Part shown: piece by piece, positions 3,682 through 21,001 of the stretch
How the letters are laid out: every line of letters begins with the position of its first letter
Numbering within the stretch: the stretch's first letter is position 1
The notes under the pieces: model-generated
The model's input: the letters and a program-made list of their open reading frames with translations, nothing else
The model's database searches: none
Told to the model about the DNA's origin: nothing
Position numbers and translations under genes: made by a program
Source of the DNA: a virus
Strand: one strand, 5' to 3'
Virus record (IMG/VR): IMGVR_UViG_3300027972_000060
Coordinates: 1-21,464 of that record
DNA: 21,464 nucleotides

Positions 3682-4344
3682 TTAACTAACTTTCAATATC
3701 TTCTTAGTTAAAGTAACATCAATATCATCAACTACATTCCAATAATGTTTAACTGCAAAATTTCTTTGAGCCTCATGTTTATTAACAAAATCTTGTTGCA
3801 TATTATAACCGTATACAAAACCAAAATCACAAGAAGATGTTGTATAATGTTGTAATTTATTTAGTTCTCTCCAATCTTTATTAAAATACATAAAAGTTAC
3901 TTCTCCTATAGATCTTACATGAGTAGGATCTTGGATAGCTCTCATACTAGTATAATAGGGAGCTATAATTCTAATTTTACCATTAGGCTTAAGTATTCTG
4001 TATACTTCTTCCATAAATCTAAATAATCCATCACTAGGCATAAAAGGATGATTTAACTTATCTTTTATATAATCTACTTTAATTAAAAAAGATTGTCTTA
4101 ACTCCTGATATGTATTAGAATGTGCAAAACACTCTACTAAGTCTTTTAAAGTAGAATCATGATTAATATGCTCTACATAGTGAGAACATATTATTTCTTC
4201 TACGGATTCTGATTTAATATCCCAAGGATATTTCTGTAAATCCATTACATAATCACATGCTTCTGTTTTAAAAGCATCTATACCAAAGTATCCTTCGATA
4301 CGATTATTTCCACATGCTAAATTCAATTTTAATTCTTCAATCAT
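3682..4344 (-). CDS. Class I SAM-dependent methyltransferase, glycan-associated type (220 aa)
   Basis: The SAM-binding motif I is clear (LNLACGNN, residues 7-14), followed by an acidic residue at the end of the second strand (GIDAF, 21-25), a post-motif SHYVEHI at 54-60, and the RILKPNGKIRIIAP strand at 116-129. DPTHVR (139-144) followed by FMYF is typical of small methyltransferases found in surface-polysaccharide loci. Compared with the usual form, residues about 61-105 hold an extra, mostly helical insertion between the SHYVEHI and RILKP motifs. The substrate is unknown. It sits 16 bases after a FISUMP gene and two genes after a glycosyltransferase, so methylation of a sugar on a virion protein or on a glycan is the likeliest role. 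Methylation of DNA is less likely because I see no DPPY-type motif or DNA-recognition domain. Confidence 0.85.
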   Translation of the reverse strand: MIEELKLNLACGNNRIEGYFGIDAFKTEACDYVMDLQKYPWDIKSESVEEIICSHYVEHINHDSTLKDLVECFAHSNTYQELRQSFLIKVDYIKDKLNHPFMPSDGLFRFMEEVYRILKPNGKIRIIAPYYTSMRAIQDPTHVRSIGEVTFMYFNKDWRELNKLQHYTTSSCDFGFVYGYNMQQDFVNKHEAQRNFAVKHYWNVVDDIDVTLTKKILKVS

Positions 4345-4360: not shown

Positions 4361-5032
4361 TTATAAATTAATCCAATTATTATCATATACACAAAAAGCT
4401 CCCGTAGTTAAAACAGACCAAATTCCTCCATCGGTTACTTCACTAATAGGATCTAAATTACTATATAAAGTTTCAGAAAGATTCTGGCTCATCCACTCCT
4501 GAGTTCCTATACAAATTGTGTTATATACTTTACCATCATTACCAATATAATAACTAGTTTCTCCGTCAGATAGAATAGTAGATTCTTTTATTAATCTTAG
4601 AGATAAACCAGTGTTTTCATGAAACCCTACTATATAGAAAGTACCATTATCATATGCAAATTGATATCCATAATAATAATCACCTACAAAATTTGTACTA
4701 CATCTAAATATTCCTAATTCTGTTAAAGAACTGAAAGCTCCTGTATCATGAGCTCTATATCCACCACCTCTAGCTGAAAATCCAGAGGAATTAGTAGCAT
4801 TAGTATTCGGAGAAGTCCAATATTTAGAAGACACCTCTTTAGCATCTCCACCAAAAGTTATTCCTCCTAATGTAGTTCTTAATGTAGCAACATCATCATA
4901 AGTAGGAACTCTCCAATTAAGTCCGACTATACCTCTAACATCTGTTATTACAAAGTTATTATATAGTAATCCATAATCACTAGTTTTTACACTAGTTCCA
5001 TATATACCAGTTAGAACAGCTTCTACAGACAT
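4361..5032 (-). CDS. FISUMP-domain adhesin-like protein (223 aa)
   Basis: I chose the ATG at 5032 (MSVEAVLTGIYG); an upstream in-frame TTG at 5044 would overlap the end of the glycosyltransferase gene. Residues about 20-150 match the second half of the Fibrobacter succinogenes major paralogous (FISUMP) domain, a C-type-lectin-like fold: YGLLYNNFVITDVRG, WRVPTYDDVATL, KYWTSPNTNATNSSGFSARG and a closing LSLRLIKES. Residues about 158-218 match what is normally the first half: DGKVYNTICIGTQEWMSQNL and VLTTGAFCVYDNNW. The halves are therefore in swapped order, as in the paralogue at 7754-9115, but here there is no LamG domain after them. A role as a small receptor-binding or tail-tip adhesin is inferred. 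It starts one base after the glycosyltransferase stop codon. Confidence 0.8.
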   Translation of the reverse strand: MSVEAVLTGIYGTSVKTSDYGLLYNNFVITDVRGIVGLNWRVPTYDDVATLRTTLGGITFGGDAKEVSSKYWTSPNTNATNSSGFSARGGGYRAHDTGAFSSLTELGIFRCSTNFVGDYYYGYQFAYDNGTFYIVGFHENTGLSLRLIKESTILSDGETSYYIGNDGKVYNTICIGTQEWMSQNLSETLYSNLDPISEVTDGGIWSVLTTGAFCVYDNNWINL

Positions 5033-5033
5033 A

Positions 5034-5753
5034 TTACCATACAATATCTTCTGTTAAAGAATAATGACCTACTAATATTCTTGTATCACAAGCAAATCTA
5101 TATCCACATTTTGCGGCATTCTCATAGAAGTAAAGATCTTGTGTATAAGCTCTTGCTCCACCCTGAACTACTTCTTGTACGGTACGAAACCAAGGCTTAG
5201 GAAGATTAGGATTCTTAAAAATATCTAATTTAAATAAGTTGAATCCCATTCCTAATCCATTACATTCCATAATAGTGTTTGCTATAGGTTTTTGCGGTAT
5301 AAAATTCTTAGGGAATACTTTAGGATCACCATATATCATAGGTTGACCTCCCTCACCCTTAGTCCAATATAAGCCTTGAACAACATCGTATTTATCCATA
5401 TTTTCATATAGTTTAAGTAATCCATCTGCAGGAGGCATATTATCTTCTTCTATAGTAAGGATATATTTCCAATTACTTAAATCAGGACTATTTAAAATCA
5501 TCTGTATTAAATTACTATATGCTGCACCTACTTCCATTCCTATAGCAAATATAGGCCCAATAACCTTTTGATTCATTGGTCTCATTAACCCCATCCAAGA
5601 CTGAACAACTCTTGCAGGAATAACTCCTCTTGTAGGACAAATAATTATAGTAGAGAGATCCTGATAGGATTTAGCTTTATCTAATCTATCTATAGAATAC
5701 TCTATATCTCTATTATGAACTCCTACATCTGGTACATAAATTTTTGCTTCCAT
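5034..5753 (-). CDS. GT-A fold glycosyltransferase (family 2-like, 239 aa)
   Basis: The N-terminal strand and loop (STIIICPTRGVIPARVVQSW, residues 34-53) and the segment YILTIEEDNMPPADGLLKLY (97-116) are typical of GT-A glycosyltransferases, with EEDN at 102-105 at the place of the metal- and nucleotide-sugar-binding DxD motif. The following VVQGLYW, the GLGMGFNLFK stretch (166-175) and TQDLYFYENAAKCGYRFACD (204-223) ending in VGH are the later conserved parts of this family as seen in many phage copies. It is probably cytoplasmic and transfers a sugar from an activated donor. The donor and acceptor cannot be read from sequence. It lies between the tailspike and FISUMP genes and is followed by a methyltransferase, so decoration of virion adhesins or of a host or phage glycan is plausible. 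Confidence 0.85.
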   Translation of the reverse strand: MEAKIYVPDVGVHNRDIEYSIDRLDKAKSYQDLSTIIICPTRGVIPARVVQSWMGLMRPMNQKVIGPIFAIGMEVGAAYSNLIQMILNSPDLSNWKYILTIEEDNMPPADGLLKLYENMDKYDVVQGLYWTKGEGGQPMIYGDPKVFPKNFIPQKPIANTIMECNGLGMGFNLFKLDIFKNPNLPKPWFRTVQEVVQGGARAYTQDLYFYENAAKCGYRFACDTRILVGHYSLTEDIVW

Positions 5754-7753: not shown

Positions 7754-9115
7754 TTAAAATGGGTATTCTCTTCCTAACCCGCTATTATAAAGATATTGAA
7801 TTTCTGATAATGATAATACTTTGGTAAAAATACCAAAACTGTCTGCTCTTATATGACCATAATATCCCCATAAAGCAGATCCTATATTTCCTATATTGAA
7901 AGTATTAGTATTAGTAATATCTAATCCTGAATATGCAGATATATCTACAGTATCCATTTGCTCTATAGCATTTATATACATCTTCATTAAACCATCACGG
8001 TCTAATACTAATGTTACAAAATAAAATGTACCTACAACAGCACCTCCATTACTGGTAATTTCTAATGTTGTACTATAGTTTATATTTAATCTTGCAATGA
8101 AGAAGTCGTCTAGTCCATTTCCAAAATGCATTTGATACGATGGATATGACCCTTGATTTCCAAAAATACCATTATAAGTATTTACACTGGATAATAAAGA
8201 TACCCATCCTATAATAGTTATATCTCCTGTACCTATATCTCCAACCGTTGATCCACAGTTAAGATAATCTCCACTACCATCAAAATCTATAGCATAGTTA
8301 ATAATCCCAGGAGACCCCAAAGTAGGTGTACCTACTATAGATCCGTTATATAATCCTACAGAATCGTATGCAGTACTACCAACAAGTTCGTTTAAAGCCC
8401 AATAAGCTTTCAAATCTGGAACTATAGGCCCAGGAGTAGTTTCTGTACAAAATTTTATATATTTAGCATTTAAACAAATTCCTTCATATATACAAATTAT
8501 ACTGTTATCTATGTCATTATCGTAGTAACACATTGCTCCCGTTGTAAGTGCTGCCCACTCTGTGTTATCTGTTACGTTAGGTATATTAGTCCCGTCCCTG
8601 TATTTTGTCTCCGCTAAATTCTCAGAAAGCCATTCCTGAGTGCCTATGCAAACTGTATTGTAAACTTTCCCGTCATTGCCGGTATAGCTTCCCGTTTCTC
8701 CATGTGAAAGGCTTGTGGAGTCTTTTATGAGGCGAAGTGCGAATCCTAATTTAGAATCATTGCCACTAAGATTCCATGTCGGTGAAGTGTCCCATTGGAT
8801 TCCAAAATCGTAACCCTCATCAGCAGACCATAATTCGATATATGATTTCAAGTCATAAAAAGTACCGTCAGTATCTCGTAATGCAGAACCACGAGCATTA
8901 AATCCGCTTGTATTAGTACCGTCATTACCTGTATTCCAATATGTATCTCCTACTTCTTTCAAAGCAGCGGCAGCATCCGTACCCCCTCCTAAAAATGTGA
9001 TTAATGTTGTCCACTCCGTATTTGTCGGAACGTGCCAACCATCGGCAGCTATATTTCTTACATCGGTAGCAGCATACCAGTTATATAAAGCTCCATATTC
9101 TATTGTACAAACCAT
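7754..9115 (-). CDS. FISUMP plus LamG adhesin protein (453 aa)
   Basis: Residues about 7-133 are a C-type-lectin-like FISUMP segment (YGALYNWYAATDVRN, GWHVPTNTEWTTL, TSGFNARGSALRD, FALRLIKDS). Residues about 139-200 carry the part that normally comes first in FISUMP domains (GNDGKVYNTVCIGTQEWLSE, ALTTGAMCYYDND). A Cys-containing linker (residues 205-225) leads to a LamG/concanavalin-like domain from about 235 to the end (AYWALNELVGSTAYDS, YAIDFDGSGDYLNCG, VLSLSEIQYLYNSGLG). It is probably a virion protein that binds host glycans or surface proteins. The FISUMP part uses visibly more G and C than the LamG part and than the FISUMP paralogue at 4361-5032, which suggests recent module exchange. 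It follows the 653-residue gene by 10 bases. Confidence 0.82.
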   Translation of the reverse strand: MVCTIEYGALYNWYAATDVRNIAADGWHVPTNTEWTTLITFLGGGTDAAAALKEVGDTYWNTGNDGTNTSGFNARGSALRDTDGTFYDLKSYIELWSADEGYDFGIQWDTSPTWNLSGNDSKLGFALRLIKDSTSLSHGETGSYTGNDGKVYNTVCIGTQEWLSENLAETKYRDGTNIPNVTDNTEWAALTTGAMCYYDNDIDNSIICIYEGICLNAKYIKFCTETTPGPIVPDLKAYWALNELVGSTAYDSVGLYNGSIVGTPTLGSPGIINYAIDFDGSGDYLNCGSTVGDIGTGDITIIGWVSLLSSVNTYNGIFGNQGSYPSYQMHFGNGLDDFFIARLNINYSTTLEITSNGGAVVGTFYFVTLVLDRDGLMKMYINAIEQMDTVDISAYSGLDITNTNTFNIGNIGSALWGYYGHIRADSFGIFTKVLSLSEIQYLYNSGLGREYPF

Positions 9116-16573: not shown

Positions 16574-17248
16574 TTATTGTTTTGAAAATTCAGCTAATGA
16601 TAATTGATATCCTTGTGCGTCCGTTACAGACATCCTTGCTAAAGTAACTGCTTCCTGAACTATATCAGAATGAATTCCTTCGTTTAACTGACAGTCATGA
16701 GCTATATCTATAGGATAATTATCAGGATGATATACTCCAACTACATAATATCCAGAAACTAATGAACCATCAGTAATAAAAACTGGAGTATTATCATATT
16801 GTAATACCCAGAATCCATCTATCTGATTAGGAGATCTAAAGGGATTTTCAATATTTTTTCTATAAAACTCATAATTTATTTTTAACAAAGGAATATTATC
16901 TGTTGTACTTGTAGTAGCATATTCATCTAATATCCAAAAATACATAGAATCAAATTCTTTTCCTACAGGAGGTGTAGTATTTAATCTACGAGCTGGAGAA
17001 CCATCAGTATTTTTAAAATGAGTATCTAATGCAAAAGCTGAATAACTATCTTCTTTTACTAAAAACTCAATAGCCAACTGATTAAAAGCATTTTTGTTTA
17101 TACCATCATTAAGAATACGTCTAACTACTCTTCTTTGAGCAACAGTTAAAAGTCCTCCCCATTCAGTATTAGTAAAACCAGGAGCATCACTGCTATTTAT
17201 ACTTTCATATAGCAGTTCTGCTTCGGCTCTCATCTCTAAAAAAGTCAT
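16574..17248 (-). CDS. Head-tail connector or portal-ring-like structural protein (224 aa)
   Basis: The N-terminal half is helical: MTFLEMRAEAELLYESINSS, then APGFTNTEWGGLLTVAQRRV and VRRILNDGI. The APGF..TE...LL..AQ..V pattern resembles a family common in crAss-like and other Bacteroidota phages next to the capsid gene, thought to form a tail or portal ring. The middle (PLLKINYEFYRKNIENPFRS) and C-terminus (HSDIVQEAVTLARMSVTDAQ) are mixed strand and helix, with helix at the end as in connector proteins. Its ATG overlaps the stop of the 295-residue gene (TAATG at 17250-17246), so their translation is coupled. The family call is from memory of the motif and not from a search. Confidence 0.7.
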   Translation of the reverse strand: MTFLEMRAEAELLYESINSSDAPGFTNTEWGGLLTVAQRRVVRRILNDGINKNAFNQLAIEFLVKEDSYSAFALDTHFKNTDGSPARRLNTTPPVGKEFDSMYFWILDEYATTSTTDNIPLLKINYEFYRKNIENPFRSPNQIDGFWVLQYDNTPVFITDGSLVSGYYVVGVYHPDNYPIDIAHDCQLNEGIHSDIVQEAVTLARMSVTDAQGYQLSLAEFSKQ

Positions 17249-18135
17249 TACTTACTTACTTTAATTTGTGCAGCAATTTTTAAATATACATCTGCTTTTA
17301 TTTCTTCGGCATTCTTCAAGTAAGAAATTAATTCTGAATAAGTATAAGATGTTCCTTCTCCTGGAATATCATACTTATTTCTAGCTGATTTTATAATAGC
17401 ACCTGCTCTTATTCCTTGTAGAATGAAGTTCTTTATCTTTCCCTCAGGATCATTTATAATTTTAAGAGCTAATGTAGTTTCATTATCAATAATTTTTCTA
17501 ATCTCTTTCTTTAACCAATCTCTATCAGAGTCTTCTTCTACATGTTTTAATTCGTTTTTTTCCATGTAATATACACCCATAAAATCTTTCATAGCTCTTG
17601 CAGAGTTTTGAATAGATCCCAGATAAGTATAAGCTTCTATAAGCTTATTGGTTTCAGTTTGTTCTTTTTCTTCAGCATATCCTTCTTCTACTAAAGCGAA
17701 TCTATATTCCCCTCTTGCAGTTCTACTATCCCAATTAGGAGCAACTTGTGGTTGTAATTTAGTAACCCTGTATCTCAGGTTATCTAAGGGATCAGCCAGA
17801 TTAAAAGCATATCCATTATGCATTAATCCATAATCCTTTATTACTTTAACAAAAAAAGTATGCCAGAAATTATCTTTCTTTTTGTTTACATTAAGATCCA
17901 AATCCAACTCTTTTTCAAAGAACTCTCTTTCTTCATTACTAATAAAAGGATCAACTAAAACATTTAATCTGTTTTTTGGTAATTGAAACCAATTACTAGC
18001 ACCTTCATATTGAAAATATGCAACATGTTCCGGAGAGCTAATCATTTTTCCTCCCCTTATTACTGGTTTTAAAAAAACTTTTTTATTCTGTAAATAACCT
18101 TTTTTAAATGCTTCTTCTTTACTAATTGTACTCAT
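17248..18135 (-). CDS. Conserved phage protein of unknown function after the capsid gene (295 aa)
   Basis: I cannot assign a function. Residues 1-130 are mixed: FLKPVIRGGKMISSPEHVAY, NWFQLPKNRLNVLVDPFISN and KDNFWHTFFVKV. DPLDNLRYRVTKL (115-127) and APNWDSRTARGEYRFALVEE (133-152) look like conserved landmarks that I recall in other large Bacteroidota phages. Residues about 155-295 are helical and highly charged (TNKLIEAYTYLGSIQNSARA, KKEIRKIIDNETTLALKIIN) and end in a small domain (NKYDIPGEGTSYTYSELISY). Lys-rich and without signal peptide, it could be a virion or assembly protein, or bind DNA. It follows the Lys-Gly peptide by 23 bases and overlaps the next gene. Confidence 0.7.
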   Translation of the reverse strand: MSTISKEEAFKKGYLQNKKVFLKPVIRGGKMISSPEHVAYFQYEGASNWFQLPKNRLNVLVDPFISNEEREFFEKELDLDLNVNKKKDNFWHTFFVKVIKDYGLMHNGYAFNLADPLDNLRYRVTKLQPQVAPNWDSRTARGEYRFALVEEGYAEEKEQTETNKLIEAYTYLGSIQNSARAMKDFMGVYYMEKNELKHVEEDSDRDWLKKEIRKIIDNETTLALKIINDPEGKIKNFILQGIRAGAIIKSARNKYDIPGEGTSYTYSELISYLKNAEEIKADVYLKIAAQIKVSK

Positions 18136-18158: not shown

Positions 18159-18203
18159 CTAACAACCTTTTCCTTTGCCTTTGCCTTTACTTTTTTTAGC
18201 CAT
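18159..18203 (-). CDS. Tiny basic peptide MAKKSKGKGKGKGC (14 aa)
   Basis: This short frame between the capsid gene and the 295-residue gene starts with ATG at 18203-18201 and stops with TAG at 18161-18159. It encodes six lysines and four Lys-Gly pairs in a row, ending in cysteine. The glycine codons vary (GGC, GGC, GGA, GGT), so the peptide pattern is kept without an exact DNA repeat in every unit. Its leader is A/T-rich like the other starts in the window. It begins 17 bases past the hairpin behind the capsid gene, so it is likely read from the same transcript. It could bind DNA or RNA, attach to the capsid through its cysteine, or act as a leader peptide for the next gene. Because it is so short, chance cannot be excluded. 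Confidence 0.45.
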   Translation of the reverse strand: MAKKSKGKGKGKGC

Positions 18204-18220
18204 AATCTACTTTTTAAATA

Positions 18221-18258
18221 AATAGTTAGGGAAGCAATAATTCACCTCCCTAACTATT
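18221..18258 (-). terminator. 12-bp hairpin after the major capsid gene
   Basis: Arms AATAGTTAGGGA and TCCCTAACTATT are perfectly complementary over 12 bp with a 14-base loop, starting 7 bases after the capsid stop codon. On the minus strand it is followed by TATTTAAAAAG, not a full T-run. It is probably a partial terminator or an mRNA-stabilising end that lets some transcription reach the genes downstream. Confidence 0.7.
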
Positions 18259-18265
18259 GGAATTA

Positions 18266-19756
18266 TTAACGAAGAATTGCGGGAAGTATACGAGCAGTCT
18301 TCTTAGGATTAGTGATTTTAACACCACCAATAAACCCTTTAAATACAGAGTAACCATCAACAGATGTAGCCATCATCCTAGGATCAGTACGCTTATTATA
18401 AGGTGAGAATGGATCTCTAAGCCCTGGAATATATCCGAAGAACTCTTCTTCATCCTTAACACTCACTTTACTAATATTAGCAGTACCATTAGTTGTACCT
18501 ACATCGAAGATCTCATAAATATAAGAACTTGCAAGACCACCATTCGGATGCCTAAGAGTATTAGGATAACCATCTTTCATAGGATCTATAGTCAATTTAA
18601 ACTTAATACCATTAACAGCTACATAGTTAAGGAACTGTCCTTCATCTAACGTAAGCTTACCACCTTCAGCCCTGATGTTGAAATTAGCATCAAGATAAGT
18701 AATAGAATTAGCCTTGTTAACAGCATCTTTATGGAATTGATATGCACCATATTCACCAGTGGATACTATGAATTCCCTCTTGTCTTCAGGAATTTTACCA
18801 TAGGACATATCCATAGCAAAATCAGTAAGCATATCAAGTGAGAAAGTATTGTAAGTTAATATGTTACCATATTCCATCTGCTCATATAAACCATAACCAG
18901 ACCTTATAACATTACCACTTTCTCCATTATGACCAAAAGTACCGTCAGCAAGTTTATTAGACTTACCGTGTCCTATCAGTCGTGCTTTGTCTCTTTCAAA
19001 TTGTACATAGAAATCCCACCCAAGTTTGTCAATCCAACGAGTCTGTGTCTTTCCATTCTGATCAATAAAAGCAAATGCAAGAGGTTTATTTTTACCCTTG
19101 GATATCATATTTCCAGGAACTTCGTAATTCTTACGAATCATAGAAAGTACGTTTTCCATCTGGTAAGGAGCAGTATGATGAACACCGTTACCTCTCTTAG
19201 AGAGTTCTTGTTCAACCATACCAAAGAGCTCAGACCACATTGTATTAGCTGCTAAATCATCAGCAAGAATCCAGAGAGTGTCGTCTCCTGTAAACAACTG
19301 TATTTTATAACGCCATGTATTACCAAACTGTACAGGATCTTCAATAACCCTTAATTGATATACATCCGGTTTGTCTCCTACGATATGTGAAGTAGCCTCA
19401 AAATATCTTTCTGGAAACCACATATAGAAGATGCCTCTATTCAAACCGACCTGAGCAGCATCGGTAACTACAGTAGCTCCGAGAGCATCAGTGGTTGCTT
19501 TAATAAGAGGAATACTACGTTCATCTGATCCTTGTAAGAACCAACGATAAACAACATCATCATTAATGTACTCAGTAGGAAGACCATTTATAAAGGAAAC
19601 AAAGTTGTCTGAACCAACATTAAGTTCGTAAAGACGATTCATTGTTTGACTTATAATTTCTGGTTCTTGCATACCAAGCCATCCAAGATGACTTTCTCTT
19701 GTTAACCCACTCCAATATTTAGGATCAACAATCTGCAACGGTGAAATTTTATTCAT
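18266..19756 (-). CDS. Probable major capsid protein (496 aa)
   Basis: Length, position after an acidic scaffold-like gene and portal-like C-terminus, a strong hairpin right after the stop, and well-ordered codons all fit a major capsid protein. Features include the start MNKISPLQIVDPKYWSGLTR, a long mixed domain with RGIFYMWFPERYFEATSH and FGNTWRYKIQLFTGDD, and FIVSTGEYGAYQFHKDAVNK at about 330-350, which resembles the helix region of HK97-fold proteins in crAss-like phages. The C-terminus (DPRMMATSVDGYSVFKGFIG) is typical of a beta-rich end. There is no signal peptide. HK97 fold is expected from the family setting but cannot be proven from sequence alone. Its leader has the AAACAATTA element shared with two other genes. 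Confidence 0.8.
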   Translation of the reverse strand: MNKISPLQIVDPKYWSGLTRESHLGWLGMQEPEIISQTMNRLYELNVGSDNFVSFINGLPTEYINDDVVYRWFLQGSDERSIPLIKATTDALGATVVTDAAQVGLNRGIFYMWFPERYFEATSHIVGDKPDVYQLRVIEDPVQFGNTWRYKIQLFTGDDTLWILADDLAANTMWSELFGMVEQELSKRGNGVHHTAPYQMENVLSMIRKNYEVPGNMISKGKNKPLAFAFIDQNGKTQTRWIDKLGWDFYVQFERDKARLIGHGKSNKLADGTFGHNGESGNVIRSGYGLYEQMEYGNILTYNTFSLDMLTDFAMDMSYGKIPEDKREFIVSTGEYGAYQFHKDAVNKANSITYLDANFNIRAEGGKLTLDEGQFLNYVAVNGIKFKLTIDPMKDGYPNTLRHPNGGLASSYIYEIFDVGTTNGTANISKVSVKDEEEFFGYIPGLRDPFSPYNKRTDPRMMATSVDGYSVFKGFIGGVKITNPKKTARILPAILR

Positions 19757-19780: not shown

Positions 19781-21001
19781 TTACTTACCAAAGATTCCTC
19801 TCATAGAATCTATGTTATCTTTAACAGTTTTATCCTGTTCAGGACTATTTATAACAGGGCTTCCTATAGAGGTTTTTGTGTTTTTTCTGGACTCAAGAGC
19901 ACTTTCCAAGCTGTTTATTTCCTTTGTAACTTTAGCTTGACCGGCTTTATTCCAAGGTTTTCCTTTCTCAAAGAAGCCAGTTTCAAGAAGATAAGCCAGT
20001 TTAGAATCAAAGAAGATAGGATCTTCAGCCCTTTTAGCCCAAAGATTATTTGTTATTCTGCCTTTAGAATCCCTTACTTCTTTTGTTAAATGTTCGTACA
20101 TTTTAGTCTTTACTTGCTTATTAATAGCAACACCTGGAATTACATCTTCCAGAGTATTGATAGTTTCTTTTAAAGAGTTTAATATTCTTTTCTTTTCGTC
20201 TTCTTTTAAAGCCAACTGATTAGCTGCTTCTGCTTCTTCTTCAGTAATTTGTTCTTTTATTGCTGCTTTTAAAGATGTCAGGTATTCTTTAGAGTCTTCA
20301 ATATCATCTCCTAAATCTATACTACTTTGTACTAATCTTTCTATCTTTGCATCTGACATAGAAGTAGTTAGTTTAAAATAGTCGATCATTACTTTTTTTC
20401 GTAACTCTGTATTTTCTTCTTTTACTAAATCTTCATTTTTAATAGCCTCAAATCTTGTTTTAAGATCTATTAAGCTACTTGCAGATTCAGCAGGAACACC
20501 TTTTCCTGTTAAAGCTAAAAATTCTTTATATCCAAGATCTAAATCAGCTTTTGCAGCTTCTACATTTGCATCAATCTCTTCTCTTATAAGATTCCTTAAA
20601 GCATCTGCCTCACCTAATTCTTTAATATTTTTATTAAATTCATCCTCATCAAAGGATGAAAGAAGCCCCTGCTTCACCAAGTCCTTAGCAAAGATTACAG
20701 TAAAAGGAGCATCAGAAGATTTTGTATCAGAAGATTGTACGTTGGTGGCAGGGGCCTTTTCATCTTTTTTCTTAACGTCTTCTTCTTCTTCTGTGTCTTT
20801 ATCTGTCTCAAGGACTTTATTAATATCTATTTTTTTATCGTCTTCAGAACCGTCGTCTTCTTCTTTTTTATCAGGCTCATCTTCAGGTTCTTCTTTTTCT
20901 GTGTCTAATGCCGGAAGATTTTCAAGCATAGAATTTATATCTAAGCTCTTATCTAATTCCAACATATCTTCAATACTCTGATCAAATACTCCTTTACTCA
21001 T
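19781..21001 (-). CDS. Probable capsid scaffold protein, acidic coiled coil (406 aa)
   Basis: Residues about 35-85 are very acidic and low in complexity (EPEDEPDKKEEDDGSEDDKK). Most of the rest is helical with coiled-coil-like charged heptads (LVKEENTELRKKVMIDYFKL, ITEEEAEAANQLALKEDEKK), and the C-terminus is basic with Ser and Thr and ends MRGIFGK. The place between a portal-like gene and the major capsid gene, the charge pattern and the length fit a head scaffold, which is needed for shell assembly and later removed. No protease triad is visible, so the phage may remove it by another enzyme or by exit through the shell. The gene has a well-matched Bacteroidota promoter (21018-21049), and the capsid gene starts 24 bases after its stop. 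Confidence 0.75.
   Translation of the reverse strand: MSKGVFDQSIEDMLELDKSLDINSMLENLPALDTEKEEPEDEPDKKEEDDGSEDDKKIDINKVLETDKDTEEEEDVKKKDEKAPATNVQSSDTKSSDAPFTVIFAKDLVKQGLLSSFDEDEFNKNIKELGEADALRNLIREEIDANVEAAKADLDLGYKEFLALTGKGVPAESASSLIDLKTRFEAIKNEDLVKEENTELRKKVMIDYFKLTTSMSDAKIERLVQSSIDLGDDIEDSKEYLTSLKAAIKEQITEEEAEAANQLALKEDEKKRILNSLKETINTLEDVIPGVAINKQVKTKMYEHLTKEVRDSKGRITNNLWAKRAEDPIFFDSKLAYLLETGFFEKGKPWNKAGQAKVTKEINSLESALESRKNTKTSIGSPVINSPEQDKTVKDNIDSMRGIFGK

Follow-up and report, generated by a model that had tools for sequence, protein, structure and literature searches.

Protein J of phiX174 and VP8 of the gokushoviruses and SpV4 are microvirus proteins of ~25-40 residues that bind the packaged DNA of these single-stranded DNA phages. 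The protamines of animal sperm are Arg-rich polycations that contain Cys, and cross-linking on DNA through disulfides is possible in principle. In VP8, the C-terminal Phe sits buried in a hydrophobic pocket (PMC11281519).

We found a peptide gene in a tailed phage that is similar to these systems in some respects and different in others. Like J and VP8, the peptide is tiny, strongly basic, and encoded with capsid genes. Unlike them, it has 14 residues, ends in Cys, and belongs to the genome of a double-stranded DNA phage. The aromatic or hydrophobic capsid anchor at the C-terminus of J and VP8 (PMC11281519) is absent; the peptide has no hydrophobic residue and its end is Gly-Cys. Judged by its predicted residues, the peptide is not a member of the J/VP8 family. 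It is like the protamines in combining a polycation with Cys, but protamines are longer and Arg-rich, and we claim no relation.

The peptide is encoded in the window, the whole stretch of viral DNA that was analyzed (21,464 nucleotides; IMG/VR record IMGVR_UViG_3300027972_000060). The gene, identified by its reading frame and by Markov and codon-change tests, is at positions 18159..18203, stop codon included, on the minus strand, and encodes MAKKSKGKGKGKGC. The codons are ATG GCT AAA AAA AGT AAA GGC AAA GGC AAA GGA AAA GGT TGT TAG. A first-pass annotation of this DNA had described a frame with six lysines and a terminal Cys, located between a capsid hairpin and the next gene in a late head region, with Gly codons that differ between repeat units. 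All of this is correct: there are six Lys, Cys is the C-terminal residue, the Gly codons are GGC, GGC, GGA and GGT, and the coordinates place the frame as described. The strand, which had not been stated, is minus.

Chance origin of this frame is very unlikely: none of 150 order-2 Markov copies of the window contained a Lys/Gly-rich frame of this kind. The frame looks translated. Its start context is A+T-rich (AAAAAGTAGATTATG). No clear Shine-Dalgarno site was seen in the start contexts that we listed for the window genes, so this context is normal for the phage. We also considered a frameshift at the A7 run (GCTAAAAAAAGT); judged by eye, neither alternative frame joins the next gene.

The neighboring genes are all on the minus strand. 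Upstream of the peptide is the gene for the major capsid protein (MCP; 18266..19756), which matches Pfam Crass_capsid PF23898 (E 5.5e-117) and gp32 of phicrAss001 (E 3.9e-79). This MCP confirms that the window phage belongs to the Crassvirales. Upstream of the MCP is a gene for an acidic protein of 406 residues (19781..21001), assigned to the gp31 position of phicrAss001 by position only and scaffold-like by composition. Downstream, 23 bases separate the peptide stop from the start (18135) of a gene for a 295-residue protein (17248..18135), which has the gp33 position, again by position only. Between the MCP gene and the peptide there is a hairpin of 17 bp (18221..18258, minus strand; RNA z-score -4.8). 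It is a candidate terminator, processing signal or mRNA-end signal, and it was present in all 19 of the clade gaps that we folded, with or without the peptide. Across the clade members folded, it is kept as structure rather than sequence, with stems of ~7-17 bp.

Evidence for coding came from comparisons of closely related frames. We pooled pairs of the same length across phage groups (window/L003, cr10_1/cr50_1, cr55_1/cr1_1, cr125_1/L242 and L246/L248, plus identical pairs). Synonymous changes numbered 17 and non-synonymous changes 7, against an expected synonymous share of 24% (P 1.8e-6). Changes between stop codons made up 2 of the 17, and the excess persisted after their removal. The window's own pair had 4 synonymous changes and 1 non-synonymous change. 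The first-pass annotation had suggested selection at the level of amino acids and had proposed looking for mainly synonymous change; the synonymous excess agrees with that suggestion. In addition, the variation in the repeat is located at the third codon positions of Gly, which disfavors a non-coding repeat produced by slippage. That the frame is a protein-coding gene, so far unannotated, is well supported by these predictions.

We compared the same gap in relatives with the same MCP, for which 41 loci were found in IMG/VR. Five lineages with this capsid gene have a Lys-Gly-Cys frame in the gap after the MCP gene. Near copies of the window are in L001 and L051, and the L001 peptide is identical. 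The other peptides are MAKKGKGKGKGKGC (L002/L003), MAKKKGRGKGKGC (L004), MACKGGGKKGGKKGGRK (L006) and MGKCGGGKKGKGKGKK (L014). The Lys/Gly make-up is kept, although the Cys, C-terminal in the window subclade, is close to the N-terminus in L006 and L014. The peptide is an extra cassette of ~45-70 bases that follows the hairpin and precedes the leader of the next gene. On the MCP tree, 20 of 26 MCPs are without the peptide, and at least two gains or losses are required to explain the pattern; for example, L014 has the peptide and its sister L015 does not. The gap of the relatives without the peptide had no trace of a broken frame, and no copy was found elsewhere in three relatives for which almost the whole sequence was read (100, 100 and 92 kb). 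That is, the peptide gene is optional, or dispensable, in the window clade. The first-pass annotation had held that absence of the frame from such relatives, or its breakage there, would count against a gene. The first of these was found, as the frame is absent from the majority of relatives that share the capsid gene. The second was not: the cassette is missing cleanly.

We also considered the possibility that a K/G tail is fused to a structural protein where the free peptide is absent. No such tail was found in the genomes examined. One relative without the peptide in its MCP gap (L239) encodes a protein of 41 residues (MKKVIKKKPCPGSKIRSGGKGRGMGTGRGKGPINRSAGRRK; 7838-7963, minus strand) that is rich in Lys, Arg and Gly, has one Cys, and is located near small membrane-type genes.

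Similar frames were found in other Crassvirales. We scanned 326 kb of annotated Crassvirales head regions for frames of 9-45 residues that start with ATG and have at least 60% K/R/G/C and at least one Cys. The number of hits expected by chance was 0.8. Unannotated frames were found in cr10_1, cr50_1, cr55_1, cr1_1, cr115_1, cr125_1, cr4_1, cr118_1 and phicrAss001, and when the criteria were relaxed slightly for additional genomes, frames were also found in cr114_1, cr60_1 and cr113_1. In 11 of the 16 Suoliviridae surveyed, the frame follows the portal gene or the portal and protease genes, and in 10 of these 11 an AGGAG-type site is ahead of it. No frame was found in the regions read of Oafivirinae and of the termite-gut phage ProJPt-Bp1. 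In Culoivirus (cr55_1, cr1_1), the peptide stop almost touches the next start (5896/5898 in L211 and 5668/5670 in L215), an arrangement that suggests translational coupling to the next gene.

The copy in phicrAss001 (MAKTCKSGGKMPPKGGKKPTKK) is between gp30 and gp31, at 26877-26945 of MH675552, with AGGAGA upstream, and the peptide of Kehishuvirus 'tikkala' is identical to it. A strong hairpin is on the 3' side, gp31 is 155 bases from the frame, and the frame appears to be the last in its transcription unit. Gene finders that apply cutoffs of 90 bases remove such frames, and the first-pass annotation was right that they would skip this gene. In the published annotation of phicrAss001, ORFs were counted from 90 bases up (PMC6235969), and the 69-base frame was left out for this reason.

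Frames of this kind are not limited to the Crassvirales. We scanned sequence collections with four patterns: ...KGKGKGC followed by a stop; KGKGKG-x-stop, which is blind to Cys; MACKGGxKK; and AGGAGG, a spacer and MAC followed by a run of purine codons. These scans gave many independent short frames. The AGGAGG-spacer-MAC pattern had 22 matches in IMG/VR, all of them frames of 11-27 codons, and one match in the bacterial and archaeal genomes of GTDB (257 Gb). The single GTDB match is a frame in a Blautia MAG and is beside a gene for the small subunit of terminase. The frames are thus phage-specific.

We used PHROGs to name the flanking genes outside the Crassvirales. In the L111 group, the peptide follows a coat gene of the P22 type, with a head-tail adaptor as the other neighbor. 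It is located between head-tail connector and scaffold genes in L072, next to a scaffold gene in L160, and in the order head-morphogenesis gene, peptide, scaffold, MCP in L188. The neighbors are a minor head protein, scaffold and MCP in L336 and, in part, in L342 and L349; scaffold and MCP in L339; a protease in L330; the portal in L333 and L108; the MCP in L052; and TerS or TerL in L352, L334, L128, L137, L044 and L050. Elsewhere, the peptide follows an endolysin gene, with a lysozyme as the neighbor (L331 group), or has a reverse transcriptase (L338) or PAPS reductase (L102) as its neighbor. Frames that look analogous therefore recur in the head modules of many tailed phages. Genes for the head or packaging are neighbors in about half of the independent contexts, an enrichment that is a descriptive tabulation, with unknowns included in the remainder. 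The window peptide, directly downstream of an MCP gene, is one of those next to a head gene.

The peptides have a common design. We defined the Cys-KG class as ORFs of 11-27 residues that have a charge of at least +5, are mainly K and G, and have a Cys no more than ~6 residues from an end. Members have charges of +5 to +8. About half of the residues are Lys or Arg and the rest are mostly Gly, with Gly between the Lys residues and almost no hydrophobic or acidic residues. There is usually one Cys near an end, and three members have Cys at both ends. The window peptide belongs to this class by size, charge, composition and Cys position. Among 24 short K/G frames from searches blind to Cys, 14 contain Cys, compared to 14% expected (P 8e-7). 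Some short K/G frames that lack Cys or a start site (e.g., MAPKGKGKGK and MLEFKGKGKGK) may be due to chance, and we did not include them as members. Such a design predicts a chain that is disordered and cationic and has a thiol at one end.

For peptides this short and low in complexity, homology between phage groups is beyond demonstration, and convergence or exchange is as possible. The longer members had no match in PHROGs, Pfam or NCBIfam up to E 10; the 14-residue peptide is too short to scan. With tblastn, two longer members had no match among annotated phages, not even to themselves, because queries that are short and low in complexity go undetected in such a search. A search of text outside the published microprotein catalogue for the strings MACKGG, GKGKGC and MACGGK also gave no match. 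That catalogue (Fremin, Bhatt and Kyrpides, 2022) reportedly contains thousands of predicted, unannotated small phage genes, and Cys-KG peptides may be listed in it without a function.

A different basic protein was found in phages with a P22-like coat. It has 48-60 residues (MPLKKGYS..ISxNI..GKPQKQAVAIAL..KK, ending KKGKK) and is encoded directly after the coat gene, with carriers that include L246, L248, L249, L251, L254 and L262. Like the window peptide, it is small, Lys-rich and directly downstream of an MCP gene. Unlike the Cys-KG peptides, it is longer, has a conserved segment, and lacks the Cys-KG design. In L246-L248, this protein is followed by a Cys-KG peptide.

What might such a peptide do? 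We favor, at even odds, the idea that it is a flexible polycation with a terminal thiol, made late, that acts in head assembly, packaging or cargo loading. The peptide would be made together with the head proteins, and its Lys residues could bind DNA or the acidic surfaces of proteins. Through the thiol at its end, the peptide could dimerize or become attached to a virion protein by a disulfide. During assembly, packaging or cargo loading, a positively charged tail would thereby be tethered close to the portal, the scaffold or the inner shell. Disulfides have been established in the portal-vertex and tail proteins of the phicrAss001 virion (PMC10172136), and therefore oxidizing maturation of such virions is realistic. 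A broader proposal, that these peptides are a widespread new class of micropeptides of tailed-phage virions or assembly, reinvented or exchanged among phages, tethered through the thiol to a head or portal protein, and unnoticed in phicrAss001, is one that we make tentatively and consider possible but doubtful.

About half of the contexts elsewhere do not have head genes, for example after the endolysin gene (L331) and after gp30 (phicrAss001). The copies in phicrAss001 and the L331 group follow lysis-type genes, and many small phage proteins target the host (reviewed in PMC11323111). It could be that the peptide is a polycation directed at the host or at lysis, acting on host nucleic acid, ribosomes, RNA polymerase or the envelope, and that its head neighbors reflect late expression only. 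However, the peptide has no hydrophobic residues and so is not a typical membrane-active peptide, and in independent lineages its neighbors are repeatedly genes for the portal, scaffold, MCP or terminase. We regard this explanation as unlikely, although it deserves to be kept in mind.

It is improbable that the frame is a leader peptide or translational coupler that regulates only the next gene, by stalling, coupling or attenuation, with its product discarded. The short distance to the next start in the window, the distances of 2-40 bases in several Suoliviridae, and the hairpin that precedes the window peptide would all fit such a role. A leader should be upstream of the gene that it regulates, on the same transcript, in every member. 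In contrast, the phicrAss001 copy is followed by its hairpin and appears to end its transcription unit, and the downstream genes vary among phages; both make a leader role unlikely. In addition, these peptides vary in length, repeat number and the position of the Cys, and keep their composition and a Cys at an end. Such a pattern is at odds with a specific stalling motif.

Apart from K and G, Cys is the only residue with strong enrichment, and it is near an end. This is consistent with a role centered on Cys (redox buffering, metal binding or thiol-capping of assembly intermediates), with the Lys-Gly tail serving as a solubilizer or localizer. Yet 10 of the 24 short K/G frames found without regard to Cys lack it, although some of these are perhaps chance frames, and there is no known motif. 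We think that such a role is very improbable.

We give slightly less credence still to the main idea of the first-pass annotation, that the peptide neutralizes packaged DNA in bulk as J of phiX174 does. The peptide resembles J and VP8 in charge and size and is late and adjacent to the capsid gene. However, in a 103-kb genome, 535 copies (one per MCP), each with a charge of +6 to +8, would offset only ~1.6-2.1% of the phosphates, and bulk neutralization is not supported. In addition, there is no hydrophobic capsid anchor, compared to the buried C-terminal Phe of VP8 (PMC11281519). The amount of peptide is probably sufficient for a local role, rather than for bulk charge balance of the genome, and it is more plausible that the peptide acts locally, at the portal, the scaffold, the inner wall or internal cargo.

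The least probable explanation is that the frame is a repeat produced by slippage, (AAAGGN)n, that does not code or has no function and is open by chance: it is a low-complexity purine repeat with a period of 6 and is patchily distributed in the clade, but changes are concentrated at synonymous positions, copies elsewhere have ribosome-binding sites and include non-repetitive variants such as the phicrAss001 peptide, and the Cys-blind search still recovered Cys.

The Cys-KG design is unannotated across crAss-like, P22-coat-like, podovirus-like and Firmicutes phages. The crAss-like phages are the most abundant human gut viruses. Since a copy is present in phicrAss001, which is cultured and structurally solved, the question of its role is testable now. 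The phicrAss001 peptide (AKTCKSGGKMPPKGGKKPTKK) with a reduced thiol has a mass of 2156.23 Da without Met and 2287.27 Da with Met. Trypsin would cut these peptides to pieces of a few residues, probably too short to detect, and proteomics would then miss them; for this reason, absence from published lists of virion peptides likely has little meaning.

Two other features of the window are of interest. In the window genes that start at 4344, 5753, 18135 and 21001 on the minus strand, an A+T-rich stretch is followed by the sequence ATTACAG, 2-4 bases upstream of the ATG (e.g., TTTGTAAAACAATTACAGTTATG). This sequence also precedes the gene for the 295-residue protein in many clade relatives, and may serve this phage group as a promoter or leader signal. 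In addition, two window proteins (4361-5044 and 7754-9115, minus strand) contain segments of the LYNWYAATDVRNIAADGWHVPT type, which we take to be the Fibrobacter succinogenes major paralogous domain; these are probably parts of tail fibers or adhesins.
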